NCBI RefSeq assembly: GCF_900100665.1
Contig: NZ_FNCS01000011.1
Span: 1-64,000, forward strand
Source: Pelagibacterium luteolum
GTDB taxonomy: Bacteria; Pseudomonadota; Alphaproteobacteria; Rhizobiales; Devosiaceae
DNA length: 64,000 nucleotides
Direction: 5' to 3'
Under the pieces are notes generated by a model. The model was not told the DNA's origin. It worked only from the letters and a program-made list of their open reading frames with translations, and ran no database searches. Positions 14,860 through 21,477 of the stretch are shown here, piece after piece (position 1 is the first letter of the stretch; each line of letters begins with the position of its first letter). Position numbers and translations under genes: made by a program.

Positions 14860-14932
14860 GCCACGGAGTCGGGGCGTTGGCATACTTTGAATCGGAGATT
14901 GCGCAGCGCTGCTGACGATGGAGGATGTTGAG

Positions 14933-15847
14933 ATGAAATCAAGTCTGGAACATCTGCCAGAACGCAAGCTGCGTGAAATCGCACGCATCGTTGAGATCAT
15001 TCATCAAGAGTTTGAAGACGCTTTAACCGAAGCCACGTCCGAAACACGCCGGCGTGGGCGGATCCTGAAAATCATTCTCTTCGGATCATACGCGAAGGGC
15101 ACTTGGGTGGACGAGCCCCACACAATGAAAGGCTATCGATCCGATTACGATATCCTGGTGATCGTCAATGAACGTCGATTTGCAGATTATAGCTATTGGG
15201 ACAGAGCCACCGATCGGCTCAATCGCGACCCGGACGTAGGCGTGCCGGTCGGGCTGATCGTCCACTCGGCACGTGAGGTGAACAACTTTTTGCGCAATGC
15301 GCAGTACTTCTTCACCGACATCCGCAAAGAGGGGATCGTTCTTTATGAGATGGACGATCGGGAGTTGGCAGAGCCCGGCATACTTACGTCGAAGCAGGCG
15401 GCGGAGGTAGCGGCGGAGCACTTTGATCAGCGGTTCCCCTCCTCGAAACATCTGATGAAACTCGCCGCCGCTTCCATTGATGACCGAATGCTAAATAATG
15501 CGGCCTTTCTTCTGCATCAATCGGTGGAAAGGGCCTACTCTGCGCTTCTGCTAGTACTTACCAACTACAGCCCTCCATCCCATAACTTAAAGTTTCTTCG
15601 CACCCTGGCTGAGGATCGGGATCGACGGCTAGTGGCGGCGTGGCCTCGAGATCAGCACCGTTATGAGGCTTGGTTTAATATTCTGAATGAAGCATACGTG
15701 AAGGCCCGCTATTCCAAGCAATACCAGGTCAGTGAAGAGGCGCTGCGGTGGCTGATCGAATGTGCGGGAGATTTGCATGTAGTCGTGAACCTGATCTGCG
15801 TTGAACGGCTCAGTCTACTGACGGGAGATGCCGAAGAGGAGGCGTAG
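14933..15847 (+). CDS. Nucleotidyltransferase (MNT-like) fused to a HEPN-like helical domain
   Basis: A 304-residue protein. Residues about 30-110 form a polymerase-beta-type nucleotidyltransferase: GSYAKGTW gives the GS motif and SDYDILVIV the paired acidic residues that bind metal. Residues about 165-300 are helical (FLLHQSVERAYSALLLVL) and resemble a HEPN domain. In bacteria MNT and HEPN usually form a two-gene toxin-antitoxin pair in which MNT modifies HEPN; here both lie in one chain. The clear RX4-6H ribonuclease motif of toxic HEPN proteins is not obvious. The ATG at 14933 follows GGAGG at good spacing; an upstream ATG (14918) has none. Confidence 0.7.
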   Translation: MKSSLEHLPERKLREIARIVEIIHQEFEDALTEATSETRRRGRILKIILFGSYAKGTWVDEPHTMKGYRSDYDILVIVNERRFADYSYWDRATDRLNRDPDVGVPVGLIVHSAREVNNFLRNAQYFFTDIRKEGIVLYEMDDRELAEPGILTSKQAAEVAAEHFDQRFPSSKHLMKLAAASIDDRMLNNAAFLLHQSVERAYSALLLVLTNYSPPSHNLKFLRTLAEDRDRRLVAAWPRDQHRYEAWFNILNEAYVKARYSKQYQVSEEALRWLIECAGDLHVVVNLICVERLSLLTGDAEEEA

Positions 15848-16402
15848 TGGACTTCGGGTAAACAATCAGTAACCCCCAGCGTCGCAAGCGTTATCGCAGA
15901 TCCTCCCCGTTTCCGGGCCTTTCCAAGGGCCAAAATTGACACATGTTGTCTACGCGAATGCCACCGGACGACGCCCAAAAGCGTCTCTCCGTACGCACCC
16001 TGCACGTCCCCGCCTGCTAGAGCCCGGAGATCGAGCTCGGTCATTTTCTGTTCATGATGGAAATTGTTCGGTCTTGGTTTTGCATCACTCTCATGCCACC
16101 ACTCTCCTCAAGGCTGGACGTGATCTCTCCAGGGCTTTTGCCGCTTTGGCGGCTGACAATGCTGTGCCGCTCCGGCGGCTGATAATTCTGTGCCGCTCCG
16201 GCGGCGCCGCTTCGGCGGCTTATCCTTTTGTGCCGCTGCGGCGGCTGACACCGATCAGCGTCTTGTCACAGGTGATCCCTGGGGCATGGCTTGCCATGGC
16301 TCATAGAGGGGCGCGCCTTTCCGCATCGACATCGATCGGTCCACGCCGGCTGGCGGATGCGCCAGGCCCGGTGCCCTTTTGTCTGGCCATGGAGAGATTT
16401 TC
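15848..16402. other. Intergenic region holding a hairpin array
   Basis: No supported gene. The first 290 bases show nothing definite; 16137-16245 carries five tandem hairpins, listed separately. The plus frame across it owes its VPLRRL repeats to the hairpin repeats. Confidence 0.5.
16137..16245 (+). repeat. Tandem array of five GCCGC-UNCG-GCGGC hairpins
   Basis: Five 14-nt perfect hairpins at 16140-16153, 16166-16179, 16192-16205, 16206-16219 and 16232-16245. All have the stem GCCGC/GCGGC closed by C-G. The loops are TTTG, TCCG, TCCG, TTCG and TGCG; four fit the very stable UNCG tetraloop class and the fifth (UUUG) differs at one base. Spacing is 26, 26, 14 and 26 bases, with linkers such as CTGACAAT and CTGATAAT. 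It lies about 160 bases upstream of the gene at 16403. Changes confined to loop positions that keep the class suggest an RNA-level role. Confidence 0.75.
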
Positions 16403-17603: not shown

Positions 17604-18365
17604 ATGTCTCATCTTTTTTCCACGCGCGGCAGCGACACCCCGCGTTCTCTTGATCTTGAAGACCTCGCCCGTCGGACTGTCACTGAGATCACTTTCGACC
17701 TCAATCGCCGTGACGATGTGCTCGGCCTCTGGGCACCCCTCGATGGTGTGATGCGCGCGGTCACATCTTATGATGGCGGTGCGCTGGAGAACGCCGCCAG
17801 GACGATCCTGAGTGCCAACGAAAATTTTGTGGTCTTTAACGCCGGCCTCCAGATGGGCATCACCGGTTCCGGCGCCGTTCGTAGCGAGCGGTATCGGCCC
17901 GATCTGGTTGCGATCAATAAGTCCACCGGCGTCCTGGTGATTTCCGAATTCAAGCGTCGCGGCGGCAACCATCCGACAAATCGGCTGAATGGGCTTGGCA
18001 CCAAGCTCGAGCGTGCCGCGGCGAACGCCAGGACCGTTCTTGCTTCGCATGCGCAGAGCTTCGAGGTCATCAAACTCGCGATCGTCGATATCGACGGCGA
18101 CGACGTCCGCCCGCTCACTGTCAATCTTGAGCAGTTCGAGGAGATCCTGGGCGCGCCCGGGTTTGCAAAATCGATGGCCCGGTTCCGCTTGGCATTTGGC
18201 CAGTATTCCCGGCCGATCATTGCCCAGCTCGCCAAGCAGCTGGTCGAGACCGAATTTGCCACCGAGGTCCGGACCGATCGCCGCGCCATAGAGCCCGCCT
18301 CCCTCAACCAAGGGCCCAAGATTGAATTCTGCCGTGCGCCGCGCAAGACGTCTGGGGGGCTCTGA
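17604..18365 (+). CDS. PD-(D/E)XK-like protein of unknown role
   Basis: A 253-residue protein. Residues 98-119 read RPDLVAINKSTGVLVISEFK, which fits the PD...ExK core of restriction-enzyme-like nucleases (Asp100, Glu115, Lys117). A preceding helix with Glu62 or Glu73 could complete the site. The ATG at 17604 is chosen because the upstream extension (to 17538) has no ribosome site. It is the first of four closely packed plus-strand genes leading to the AAA+/M41 protease and a recombinase. The fold is inferred from a short motif; non-catalytic members exist, so nuclease activity is a prediction. Confidence 0.6.
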   Translation: MSHLFSTRGSDTPRSLDLEDLARRTVTEITFDLNRRDDVLGLWAPLDGVMRAVTSYDGGALENAARTILSANENFVVFNAGLQMGITGSGAVRSERYRPDLVAINKSTGVLVISEFKRRGGNHPTNRLNGLGTKLERAAANARTVLASHAQSFEVIKLAIVDIDGDDVRPLTVNLEQFEEILGAPGFAKSMARFRLAFGQYSRPIIAQLAKQLVETEFATEVRTDRRAIEPASLNQGPKIEFCRAPRKTSGGL

Positions 18366-18367
18366 TC

Positions 18368-18679
18368 ATGGATATGGAACGGATCCGCTTTACCCGGCCG
18401 CCGCTGTGGTGGCGCCTGGCCAATGCAAACGCCGCCCTTGAAGGGACGGTCACCAGTCGTCCCCTGCCCGCACCCGAGATGGGCCGCACCGACCCCGCGG
18501 CCCTGATTGCGCTCGCTGTTCGGCACCAGGCGATTGGTGCTGTCGATGGTGCGCCCATCCCCAATTTCATCCGCGCCGGGCTGCGCGAACATGCCGATCA
18601 CGGCCACCTCGGCGCCCGCACAACGCTCGATTGGCTTGATGAATGCCTTTCTGGCCAACTCGAAACGCCAGGAGAATAA
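18368..18679 (+). CDS. Hypothetical protein, 103 aa
   Basis: Begins 2 bases after the previous stop and ends 1 base before the next start, so it belongs to the same operon. The sequence (MDMERIRFTRPPLWWRLANA..., HGHLGARTTLDWLDECLSG) is mostly helical with no transmembrane segment or recognised domain. Its position between a PD-(D/E)XK-like protein and an AAA+ protease suggests an adaptor or substrate-specificity factor; this is only contextual. Confidence 0.6.
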   Translation: MDMERIRFTRPPLWWRLANANAALEGTVTSRPLPAPEMGRTDPAALIALAVRHQAIGAVDGAPIPNFIRAGLREHADHGHLGARTTLDWLDECLSGQLETPGE

Positions 18680-18680
18680 A

Positions 18681-20591
18681 ATGTCGAAATCCAAACTCTC
18701 CAAACTCGGCAATCCCGCAGTGGACGACCTTCCCGCCTCCTCGGCCCTCCTCGCCGAAGCCATGGTCAGGTCCGCTCTTACGCCCGGGGCGCGGCGCTTG
18801 CTCAAAGCCCGTGCGAAAGCGATCCTGTTTTTGACCCCCTCGCCTTCTGCCTCTCTTGCCATCGAGAACTATCTCGACGGATTGCCCGATGCGCCGCGGG
18901 TTCAGGCGATCACAGAGCTGCGCAAACGCAGCAGCGCTTCTGGCTGGACAAACAGCAATCATCTGGCGCCTTTGCTGATGGGGCAGAGCGTTGTGCTGGT
19001 GACACATGACAAGGCGATGATCCTTGATGACGAGCTGGCAGCGCTCGATGGCGCAATCTTGGTGGCGATGCCGCGCGCCCACCACCTGCGGGGCGTCATC
19101 AAACGCGTCACTGGCGAGAACGCCACGGGCCTTGGGCAACACGTTGTGGACAAGCTCGAGTTCACCGACATCGTCAACGCGATCCGCCCAGGTCAAAAAG
19201 CCAGTGCCTGCGTTGCCAATCTCAAGCGCGCTGCGAAAGCTCGGACCCGGGACCCGAGCATCAATCCGGCACCCCTTTTGAGTTCGATGGCTTTGACCGA
19301 GGAGGTCAAATCTTGGACCGACGACATGTTGGTCGCGATGAAGTCTGCACAAAGCAGTCATGCCTGCGATCTGCCGTTCAGTCTGCTGGGCGGCGCTCCT
19401 GGCACCGGCAAGACGACGATTGCGGCAAGCCTTGCGAAATCGGCGGGTTGGGACTTCCTTGAAACCTCAGTGGGCAAATGGTTCGAGACCTCCGACGGGA
19501 ATCTCGGCGGCGTCTCGCAAGCATCCGGAGCATTTTTCACCGAACTCGCGAAATCCAAACGCCCGGTTGTGGGCTTGATCGATGAGATCGACGCGATCCC
19601 GAACCGGGCCAGCCTTGCGCCCCGCGACCTGCAATGGTGGACGCCAGTGGTCACACTCGTTCTGCTGCATATCGACAAGCTCAAAAAGCTCGGCAAACCG
19701 ATCCTGCTCGTTGGGGCGAGCAATTTTCCAGAGCGTCTGGATGGCGCCCTGGTGCGGCCAGGACGGCTTGAGCGCCGCGTTCAGTTTAACCTACCCAATC
19801 AATCTGAACGTTACGCGATGCTCAAACGGTTTCTGGCGGGCACCATGAGCGATTCCGAGGTGTCGATCATCGCAGATCTGACAGCCGGTGCGACACCAGC
19901 GCGCCTGAAGGGGTTGGCCAAAGCCGCCCTCGACAGCGCAACCAACGAGGGTCGGGTTGTTCAATTCAGCAATCTCCGGGAGCTGATTGTTGGCAATGAC
20001 AAGCCAGAAGATCTTCGCGGCGTGGCCATCCACGAGGCTGGCCACGCAGTCGTAGCTCTCGAACTCGGGTTCGAGATCGAAACGGCATCCATTTTGAAAT
20101 CGGCCATCATCGACGGCCATGTGAAAATCAAACCCGATAAAACTCCCCTCAACCGCCTCGGGGTCGAGCGGCTGGCCGTGGTGATGCTCGCAGGACGCGC
20201 AGCTGACGTTTCGTTGGGAAATGGTGCAGATGCGGGCGCAGCGGCCGATCTGGACTCTGTCAACAGGCTCCTGCTCGACGGCCTTTTGGGTTTTGGCCTG
20301 TTTGGCACGCTTCAGACCCGTCACACCATCGATATCAAGGATATCGACGGGAGCGGACAGAACCTGAGCCGCTGGGTGGGCTCGATGTTGCAGAGGCTCG
20401 AGCGCCGAGCAGAAGAGATCATCGAGATGAGACAAAAGGACGTTCGCAAGCTTGCCGATGCGTTGATTGACGAACGCGTCATGGATGGTGATCGGGTGCG
20501 AGCCATCCTCGGGCCAAACGAGACACCGCAGCTGTCGCTTGTATCGAACGCGCCCAAAGACGGCCCGTTTGAAGGAGGGACGAATGGCTGA
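18681..20591 (+). CDS. Soluble AAA+ ATPase fused to an M41 (FtsH-like) metallopeptidase
   Basis: 636 residues from ATG 18681 (ribosome site CAGGAGA). An N-terminal domain of about 225 residues is not recognised. The AAA+ module has Walker A GAPGTGKT (238-245), Walker B VVGLIDEID (296-304) and arginine-finger region ALVRPGRLERRV (356-367). The peptidase has the zinc motif HEAGH (451-455) and a downstream AAADLDSVNRLL offering the third, acidic ligand. Unlike housekeeping FtsH there are no transmembrane helices, so it should act in the cytoplasm as an ATP-driven protease. Its stop overlaps the start of the recombinase gene. Substrate unknown; defence, replication control or mobile-element maintenance are possible. 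Confidence 0.88.
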   Translation: MSKSKLSKLGNPAVDDLPASSALLAEAMVRSALTPGARRLLKARAKAILFLTPSPSASLAIENYLDGLPDAPRVQAITELRKRSSASGWTNSNHLAPLLMGQSVVLVTHDKAMILDDELAALDGAILVAMPRAHHLRGVIKRVTGENATGLGQHVVDKLEFTDIVNAIRPGQKASACVANLKRAAKARTRDPSINPAPLLSSMALTEEVKSWTDDMLVAMKSAQSSHACDLPFSLLGGAPGTGKTTIAASLAKSAGWDFLETSVGKWFETSDGNLGGVSQASGAFFTELAKSKRPVVGLIDEIDAIPNRASLAPRDLQWWTPVVTLVLLHIDKLKKLGKPILLVGASNFPERLDGALVRPGRLERRVQFNLPNQSERYAMLKRFLAGTMSDSEVSIIADLTAGATPARLKGLAKAALDSATNEGRVVQFSNLRELIVGNDKPEDLRGVAIHEAGHAVVALELGFEIETASILKSAIIDGHVKIKPDKTPLNRLGVERLAVVMLAGRAADVSLGNGADAGAAADLDSVNRLLLDGLLGFGLFGTLQTRHTIDIKDIDGSGQNLSRWVGSMLQRLERRAEEIIEMRQKDVRKLADALIDERVMDGDRVRAILGPNETPQLSLVSNAPKDGPFEGGTNG

Positions 20592-21477
20592 CTGGCGCCC
20601 GTCCCTCCGGCGTCTTGAGGGCGCTTATGCCGAGGCGACAATTTCGAGCTATCGCTGTGACTTCGAAAAATTTGCGGCCTGGTGCCGCCGGAGGCGCCTT
20701 CGGGCGCTCCCGGCAAAGCCAGAAACCGTTGCTGCCTATATCGAAGTGTCAAGCGAAGAAGTAAAACCCACCACGTTGAAACGGCGTTTGTCGGCGATTG
20801 CGAAGGTGCATCGGATCGCCGGTCACGTCTCGCCCACCGACGACGAGGCCGTTGCACTTGCGATCCGCCGCGCGAAACGTTCCAAGCCTGGGCGACCGCA
20901 GCAAGCGCTTGGCGTGACAGCGGAGCGACGTGACCGGCTCATGTCGGCATGCAGCGATGATCTCGCGGGCCTCCGCGATAAGGTTCTGGTTGCGGTAGGT
21001 TTCGATACCCTGTGTCGCCGCGCTGAACTCGTGGCGCTGCGTGTTGAAGATTTTACCCGAGCGGCCGATGGGACCTACAATGTGTTGGTCAGGCGGGCCA
21101 AGAATGACCAGGCTGGACTTGGTCGCATCGCCCGCCTCTCGCACGCCACCAGCAGATTGGTTGATCAATGGCTGGCAACCACAGCAATCCAGAGAGGCCC
21201 CCTACTCCGCCCCGTCTACCGGACGATCCTCGCATCGCGCTATCTGCACCCTTCATTTGTCGGTGCGACGCTCAAGCGCCTCAGCAGAGCAGCAGGTTAT
21301 CCGGCAGAGGAGTCTTGCCGAACGAGTGGGCATTCCCTTAGAGTCGGCGCGGCCCAGGAGCTGACAGTGATGGGGCACGGGCTCCTCCCTATAATGTCTG
21401 CTGGCGGCTGGAAATCGACTGCGGTGGTCGCTCGGTACATCGAGAATGTCGAAATGAATGTGTGGGCTGGAAAGTGA
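20584..21477 (+). CDS. Tyrosine recombinase
   Basis: A 297-residue phage-integrase-family protein. Residues 1-100 form the core-binding domain. The catalytic set is visible: Arg in LCRRAEL (145/146), Lys173 in RRAKND, HSLR (250-253), Trp276 in GGWKS and Tyr285 in ARYIEN. All required residues are present, so it should be active. The ATG overlaps the end of the protease gene by 8 bases, and the close packing implies that both belong to one functional unit. No attachment site could be identified by eye. Confidence 0.9.
   Translation: MADWRPSLRRLEGAYAEATISSYRCDFEKFAAWCRRRRLRALPAKPETVAAYIEVSSEEVKPTTLKRRLSAIAKVHRIAGHVSPTDDEAVALAIRRAKRSKPGRPQQALGVTAERRDRLMSACSDDLAGLRDKVLVAVGFDTLCRRAELVALRVEDFTRAADGTYNVLVRRAKNDQAGLGRIARLSHATSRLVDQWLATTAIQRGPLLRPVYRTILASRYLHPSFVGATLKRLSRAAGYPAEESCRTSGHSLRVGAAQELTVMGHGLLPIMSAGGWKSTAVVARYIENVEMNVWAGK

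Follow-up and report, generated by a model that had tools for sequence, protein, structure and literature searches.

A recurring AAA/M41 protease with swapped nucleases suggests a new and possibly antiviral mobile gene set

The first 64,000 nucleotides of contig NZ_FNCS01000011.1 of Pelagibacterium luteolum (assembly GCF_900100665.1; this whole stretch is referred to here as the window) carry a compact cassette of four plus-strand genes at positions 17604-21477. Three of its products, a predicted nuclease (P0001), a small partner protein (P0002) and a soluble ATP-dependent AAA/M41 protease (P0003), belong to a real conserved unit that recurs in other genomes; the fourth gene encodes a tyrosine recombinase (P0004), which does not belong to the core and is instead an optional passenger or mover. 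Recurrence of the protease with swapped nucleases suggests a mobile set of genes that has not been described before and may serve against viruses. We consider the chances about even that this is a small mobile cassette for genetic conflict, whether defence against phages or plasmids or addiction, in which the AAA/M41 protease would control an interchangeable nuclease.

The close packing of the four genes, claimed in a preliminary description of this DNA, agrees with the open reading frames (ORFs) and their translations. The gene for P0001 (253 amino acids (aa), 17604-18365) is followed after 2 bases by that for P0002 (103 aa, 18368-18679), recognized as the nuclease's partner from its ORF and its same position in relatives, and this after 1 base by the gene for P0003 (636 aa, 18681-20591). 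The end of the protease gene overlaps the start of the recombinase gene (297 aa, 20584-21477) by 8 bases (20584-20591). Because the same arrangement recurs elsewhere, it is beyond chance.

Recurrence of the core in other genomes

Relatives of P0001 occur in 6 of the 136 genomes of the family, the window's genome included. An AAA/M41 gene follows the nuclease gene in five loci (L043-L047) of four other genomes, and at L048 the contig ends before any such gene could be seen. P0002 has its own gene in the window; in L046 and L047 it is joined to the nuclease, whose ORF matches it in the C-terminal part. No match to it was found in L043 and L044.

A wider view comes from scanning contigs, one genome per species, with five Rhizobiaceae nucleases as queries. 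This gives 30 loci, some sharing a genome and most of them from Rhizobiaceae, and in 24 of them a nuclease, a P0002-like protein, an AAA ATPase and an M41 protease are encoded in this order on the same strand, the ATPase and the protease being separate genes; Shinella and Hoeflea are among the genera with complete copies. Loci were found by the nuclease only, and therefore the rest of the quartet order was not built into the search; the queries were made from Rhizobiaceae, and therefore the result says little about other groups. Among the remaining six, four end within or just after the nuclease gene, L268 ends about 1.1 kb past the P0002-like gene, and L276 is apparently interrupted. (At L276 the P0002-like gene is followed, where AAA and M41 genes are expected, by genes that by eye resemble an IS21-type insertion.) In 19 of the loci L248-L277 the quartet is preceded on the same strand by a further gene (median 362 aa), mostly about 0.5 kb away among the loci listed.

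Plasmids carry the unit as well. P0001 itself finds no match among plasmids, and the L045 nuclease finds 10 records, nine of them from Rhizobiaceae and the tenth a second plasmid of one of these organisms. Six-frame reading of the nine Rhizobiaceae loci shows the nuclease and a P0002-like gene in all nine, with a complete AAA gene and then a separate M41 gene in eight; the record of the ninth, L222, ends inside the AAA gene. The existing gene annotation of these loci shows only part of this order. In five of these loci the P0002-like gene is found by a profile from the window's family alone (E from 2.6e-9 to 6e-6). A later profile included those five, so that L218, L223, L224 and L225 are the independent finds. 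Had the genes never co-occurred elsewhere, the preliminary description would have been refuted by its own standard; the quartet order in 24/30 scanned and 8/9 plasmid loci shows that they do. A P0001-family profile finds only the window's genome among 289 genomes of the class; since a plasmid search with another member did find Rhizobiaceae, either that profile or that sample is insensitive.

Predicted activities and exchange of the nuclease

Neither P0001 nor P0002 reaches the cut-off of any curated family in Pfam or NCBIfam; the best Pfam model for P0001 is Hjc (E = 0.19), and P0002 has no Pfam family match. Residues E62, P99, D100, K117 and R118 are invariant in all 14 aligned relatives of P0001, residue 115 is D or E, and the E ... 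PD ... (D/E)xK motif of PD-(D/E)XK nucleases is thus present in 14/14. By translation and the relatives' alignment, PD is encoded at 17898-17903 and E-x-K at 17946-17954 (plus strand). PD-(D/E)xK also occurs in 28 of the 30 nuclease ORFs found with the Rhizobiaceae queries, and the remaining two (176 and 66 residues) are truncated where their contigs stop. An AlphaFold2 (AF2) model of P0001 has a mean predicted local distance difference test score (pLDDT) of 76.7, with a low-confidence tail after residue ~225. PD-(D/E)XK nucleases dominate its Foldseek list (best E 1.5e-3), which includes R2 endonuclease, cap-snatching endonucleases, SduA, Bax1, Can2 and McrBC, all of which we take to share that fold. 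Support for the alpha-beta core fold of PD-(D/E)XK nucleases in the modeled P0001 is moderate, because no Foldseek match lies below E 1e-3. Motif, model and Foldseek list together fit the prediction of a PD-(D/E)XK-type nuclease. The P0001-family profile has four matches in the PDB, at E 0.5 or worse and to unrelated enzymes. Most relatives also share a short C-terminal tail motif (about V-x-F-A-R) behind a variable stretch, possibly a docking site or a degron.

P0003 is assigned by Pfam (AAA, 6e-19; Peptidase_M41, 4e-10), Foldseek and conserved residues. Its model shows an N-terminal alpha/beta domain (residues ~18-205, 18732-19295), and alignment places Walker A at residues 237-245 (19389-19415), the zinc-binding HEAGH at residues 451-455 (20031-20045) and D523, the putative third zinc ligand, at 20247-20249, all on the plus strand; the role of D523 is presumed by analogy with FtsH. 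Across 42 aligned proteases K244 (Walker A), E302, H451, E452, H455 and D523 are invariant and D301 is 98% conserved, bearing out the complete Walker A/B and HEAGH motifs claimed at the outset. Loss of the PD/ExK residues or the zinc site in homologues would have spoken against the preliminary description, and both are kept (14/14 and 42/42). Foldseek finds the FtsH fold (best E 7e-23), and the 50 PDB matches listed, obtained with P0003 as a whole, are all FtsH-type. The highest 19-residue hydropathy is only 1.41, against 2.39 in an FtsH-like protein of the same genome, so that by hydropathy P0003 has no membrane helix, as the preliminary description held in setting it apart from housekeeping FtsH; 14 of the 42 relatives reach 1.6 or more somewhere (maximum 2.04). 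A close-relative scan of genome contigs with P0003 found nothing, and the family's protease profile, at 1e-60, finds 16 of the 289 genomes of the class. Phage records that match P0003 number 35, none across more than 80% of it. A gene annotated FtsH occurs in several records of Pseudomonas phages that, like PA5oct, measure about 285 kb.

P0004 matches Phage_integrase (6e-13) and an N-terminal SAM-like domain (4e-7) in Pfam. Its family keeps R145, R146, K173, H250, R253, W276 and Y285 invariant in 13/13 aligned members, and these residues, whose catalytic roles we assume, supply the R, K, HxxR, W/H and Y of tyrosine recombinases in all 13. The identities first proposed for the parts, a PD-(D/E)XK-like nuclease, a soluble AAA/M41 protease and an intact recombinase, therefore hold.

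The near branch of the protease family was sampled in 40 regions, the first six picked by P0001 matches and the others by protease similarity, and its counts rest on 42 protease genes longer than 500 aa. Upstream of these lie 34 GIY-YIG-type proteins, six PD-(D/E)XK proteins, one winged-helix-type protein (L080) and one contig end (L079). The GIY-YIG catalytic residues (Y, Y-x-G, R, E) are kept in 31/31 aligned GIY-YIG-type proteins; outside the alignment are L068 (split over frames), L082 (a weaker match) and the second gene of L081 (partial). Pfam, run on three of these proteins, gives DUF4357 below cut-off in all three and GIY-YIG at E 0.31, also below cut-off, in one; two Rhodococcus matches carry the annotation GIY-YIG nuclease family. 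A profile of the GIY-YIG-type protein finds 4 of the 289 genomes of the class and no match in the PDB.

On the tree, the window's protease groups with GIY-YIG-linked proteases (support 100/99), a grouping repeated with the AAA/M41 part alone (99) and with the N-terminal part (91). The approximately unbiased (AU) test rejects a tree in which the six PD-(D/E)XK-linked proteases form one clade (p 0.0002, 38 rows). This test and the part trees leave out L079, L080, L082 and the second gene of L081 from the 42 rows, and the window's branch is long and stands beside another long branch, which calls for caution on its placement. Because this protease sits in a GIY-YIG-linked branch, the nuclease was exchanged, and the nuclease slot is interchangeable, a predicted PD-(D/E)XK or an unrelated predicted GIY-YIG nuclease standing beside the same protease. 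The window's recombinase groups with those of L062, L046 and L047, and from the tree placements of protease and recombinase the cassette is a mosaic.

Mobility and possible function

A recombinase gene lies directly downstream of 16 of the 42 near-branch proteases, at least three of these genes being broken (L069, L076, L077). Recombinases of the family with at least 44% identity number 27, of which 17 stand behind the protease or its fragment and ten have no adjoining protease gene; linked and solo recombinases separate on the tree, with support of only 51/90. The core persists without the recombinase, since 26/42 proteases lack it and no family recombinase was detected in the available stretch of the 24 complete quartets. 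(In L222 and L227 the first 0.6 kb holds a gene annotated integrase, across repABC from the cassette, to which the recombinase profile gives weak scores of 16 and 39 bits.)

A mobile copy is seen in L059 and L064, which are 91.5% identical across 4.7 kb and have flanks that cannot be aligned. The shared unit, nuclease-protease-recombinase, runs from about 0.3 kb upstream of the nuclease gene to the stop codon of the recombinase; it is one mobile unit at unrelated sites in two genomes. An inverted 13-8-13 core site does not hold as a rule for the left end, as only L064 of eight loci has it (11/13) and the other seven stay below 9/13. A shared left-end motif, offered as a lead only, is exact in 6/16 recombinase loci and 0/24 others in the scanned stretch, with the pattern derived from the same loci in which it was counted; it has no match in the window. 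Four outside matches reach the end of the left flank of L064, and all stop at this motif. For the left flank of L081 there are two outside matches: one, G078, goes no further than the motif and is probably the same insertion in decayed form, and the other ends earlier. When the flanks of two loci were joined, no match crossed the junction. Nor was an empty site for the window's flanks found in the 12 other genomes of the genus, where the two genes that flank the cassette have best relatives of only 33% and 49% identity. At 16140-16248 the window holds three near-copies of a GCCGCTTTGGCGGCTGA-type repeat.

A distant branch of the protease (40 loci sampled) often lies upstream of tnsA-tnsB-tnsC-tniQ-like genes. 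With queries consisting of an annotated TnsA and TnsB (L139) and two TnsA-looking gene clusters from the same loci, 21/40 distant loci show a TnsA- or TnsB-like gene within the stretch covered, and three loci match the annotated TnsA itself. Of ten regions traced further downstream, eight were picked for a cluster gene already seen there; by cluster, the ten contain TnsB-like (10/10), TnsC-like (7/10) and TniQ-like (8/10) genes. Pfam on single members gives TniQ at 1.5e-10, AAA_22 at 1.7e-7 and Mu-transpos_C at 9e-4 (below cut-off); the TnsA-like proteins have no Pfam match. The same TnsA/TnsB-type queries find nothing in L043-L082. Distant loci (L145-L194) often stand beside a DUF6634 gene and a small winged-helix protein, and often also an XRE-like gene. 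In various bacteria (L050, L054, L056, L070, L072, L073, L139, L141) an AAA/M41 gene has a DUF6634 gene next to it; the term DUF6634 was not found in the literature searched.

Several observations touch on defence. The GIY-YIG protein of L058, the one member tested, matches PADLOC family PDC-S14 (4e-18), which we take to be a phage defence candidate family, and the best PADLOC match of the AAA domains tested is IetA. Some plasmid-borne protease relatives lie near TIR and 3'-5' exonuclease genes, others near SAVED and nucleotidyltransferase genes; on Thioclava plasmid p5 (L143), an integrase and an AAA/M41 gene are followed by SAVED and nucleotidyltransferase genes on the other strand. In the window, a nucleotidyltransferase-HEPN gene (14918-15847, plus strand; PADLOC candidate-defence family PDC-S09, E 4e-7) lies outside the cassette, 1.8 kb upstream. 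At 1e-15, 21 PADLOC families appear among 120 neighbour ORFs (of 179 around 20 cassettes) and 6 among 120 control ORFs (of 191 from 20 regions). Other points weigh against a conflict function. Those tallies count families, not proteins, and carry no significance test; P0001, P0002 and P0004 match no family in PADLOC 2.0; and the commonest Pfam families among neighbour ORFs (best 25 of 119) are those of ordinary metabolism and transport, so that most copies do not look like defence islands and the defence-island reading is weakened. A role in DNA mobility would also fit the Tn7-like surroundings of the distant branch and the position of the window's recombinase just behind the protease.

In the mechanism that we propose, the AAA/M41 protein would form a hexamer that engages the nuclease via P0002 or the nuclease's C-terminal tail, and would hold, unfold or trim it. 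An invader signal read by the N-terminal domain of the protease, or loss of the cassette, would tip this control and let the nuclease cut DNA, and the recombinase would spread the cassette. The preliminary description suggested a mobile-element maintenance or defence module: the recombinase proves optional rather than core, and the purpose is one that we infer, with an accessory role in DNA mobility as its rival. Somewhat short of even, and put forward tentatively, is the larger proposal of a new class of immune system, with a soluble FtsH-type AAA protease as regulator or sensor, an interchangeable nuclease effector and its own recombinase in a self-moving 4-5 kb element, from a protease lineage that would also serve Tn7-like transposons.

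An accessory role in mobility, in which the protease remodels or clears a recombinase, transposase or repressor (a comparable remodelling role is played for Mu by ClpX/ClpXP) and the nuclease helps integration, strikes us as unlikely, although it draws on the recombinases directly behind proteases or their fragments (16/42; 17/27), their separation from solo ones on the tree (at the support given above) and the Tns-like genes of the distant loci (TnsA/TnsB-like near 21/40, TnsB-like in 10/10 followed regions). It has to contend with the 26/42 near-branch proteases and 24 complete quartets where no such recombinase is seen, and with the ten family recombinases that have no adjoining protease gene. 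More doubtful still is a strict addiction module that keeps plasmids or islands, with the nuclease as putative toxin and the protease as putative antitoxin destroying it, so that cassette loss would free the nuclease. Three Rhizobiaceae plasmid copies (L222, L225, L227) within about 2.3 kb of repABC favour it, L225 having a transposase gene between cassette and repABC, as does the tail motif, which behind its low-confidence stretch could be a degron; but two of the three copies are closely related (nucleases 90% identical). That the genes are ordinary neighbours forming no functional unit, as the lack of a curated family for P0001 and P0002 might suggest, is very improbable: their order is conserved across genera, and unrelated nucleases are swapped beside the same protease. 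For nuclease, P0002, AAA and M41 the conserved order refutes it, and it survives only for the recombinase. If the conflict cassette is what it seems, control of DNA cutting by a proteolytic AAA machine paired with an exchangeable nuclease would be unusual, and conservation of the quartet in named rhizobial genomes opens the idea to direct testing. The tie of one protease lineage to two unrelated DNA-moving machineries raises the question of whether it is defence cargo or a mobility part.

Comparison with known systems

The claim that this is not a standard operon is upheld by the family libraries and literature searched, which hold no such set; the literature search (titles and abstract beginnings, with most subscription journals outside it) found no description of the cassette. 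Among known systems, Shedu shares the PD-(D/E)XK fold, SduA (8ps4) being Foldseek match 4 for P0001 (E 5.4e-3). SduA is a single-gene system, and P0001 differs in having neither a PADLOC match nor a Pfam match above cut-off. The likeness to PDC-S14 is confined to the GIY-YIG protein that takes P0001's place in most relatives, as P0001 itself gives no match.

Two mobile elements invite comparison. Tn7-like transposons resemble the distant protease loci in their genes, and unlike them the window's cassette has no TnsA/TnsB-type match within 20 kb. The Tsy element, according to the main text of its description (Faure et al. 2023, PMC10293859), is a tyrosine-recombinase element, one branch of which carries a GIY-YIG nuclease; removal of that nuclease impaired transposition, a result that favours the mobility reading, and yet the nuclease was not essential. 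Unlike the cassette, Tsy as described there has a helix-turn-helix (HTH) protein, a TnsF with its own recombinase domain, and comM as its target, and a word search of that main text finds neither FtsH nor M41.

The closest defence model is that of IetAS, whose IetA AAA domain scores best for P0003 (PADLOC E 1.9e-16; NCBIfam IteA 3.6e-14). IetAS pairs an AAA ATPase with a protease of subtilisin type. P0003 reaches only 52.7 bits against the IteA cut-off of 510, Pfam finds no serine protease in P0001, P0002 or P0004, and the cassette has an M41 protease instead, plus a nuclease. A further comparison is with the FtsH/M41 AAA proteases, with which P0003 shares AAA and M41 domains, HExxH with the conserved third aspartate, and the FtsH fold. 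It parts from FtsH in scoring 108.3 bits against the curated TIGR01241 cut-off of 600, in lacking the N-terminal membrane helices, and in having a different N-terminal domain; and in the Rhizobiaceae-type loci the family departs further, with AAA ATPase and protease encoded by two genes.

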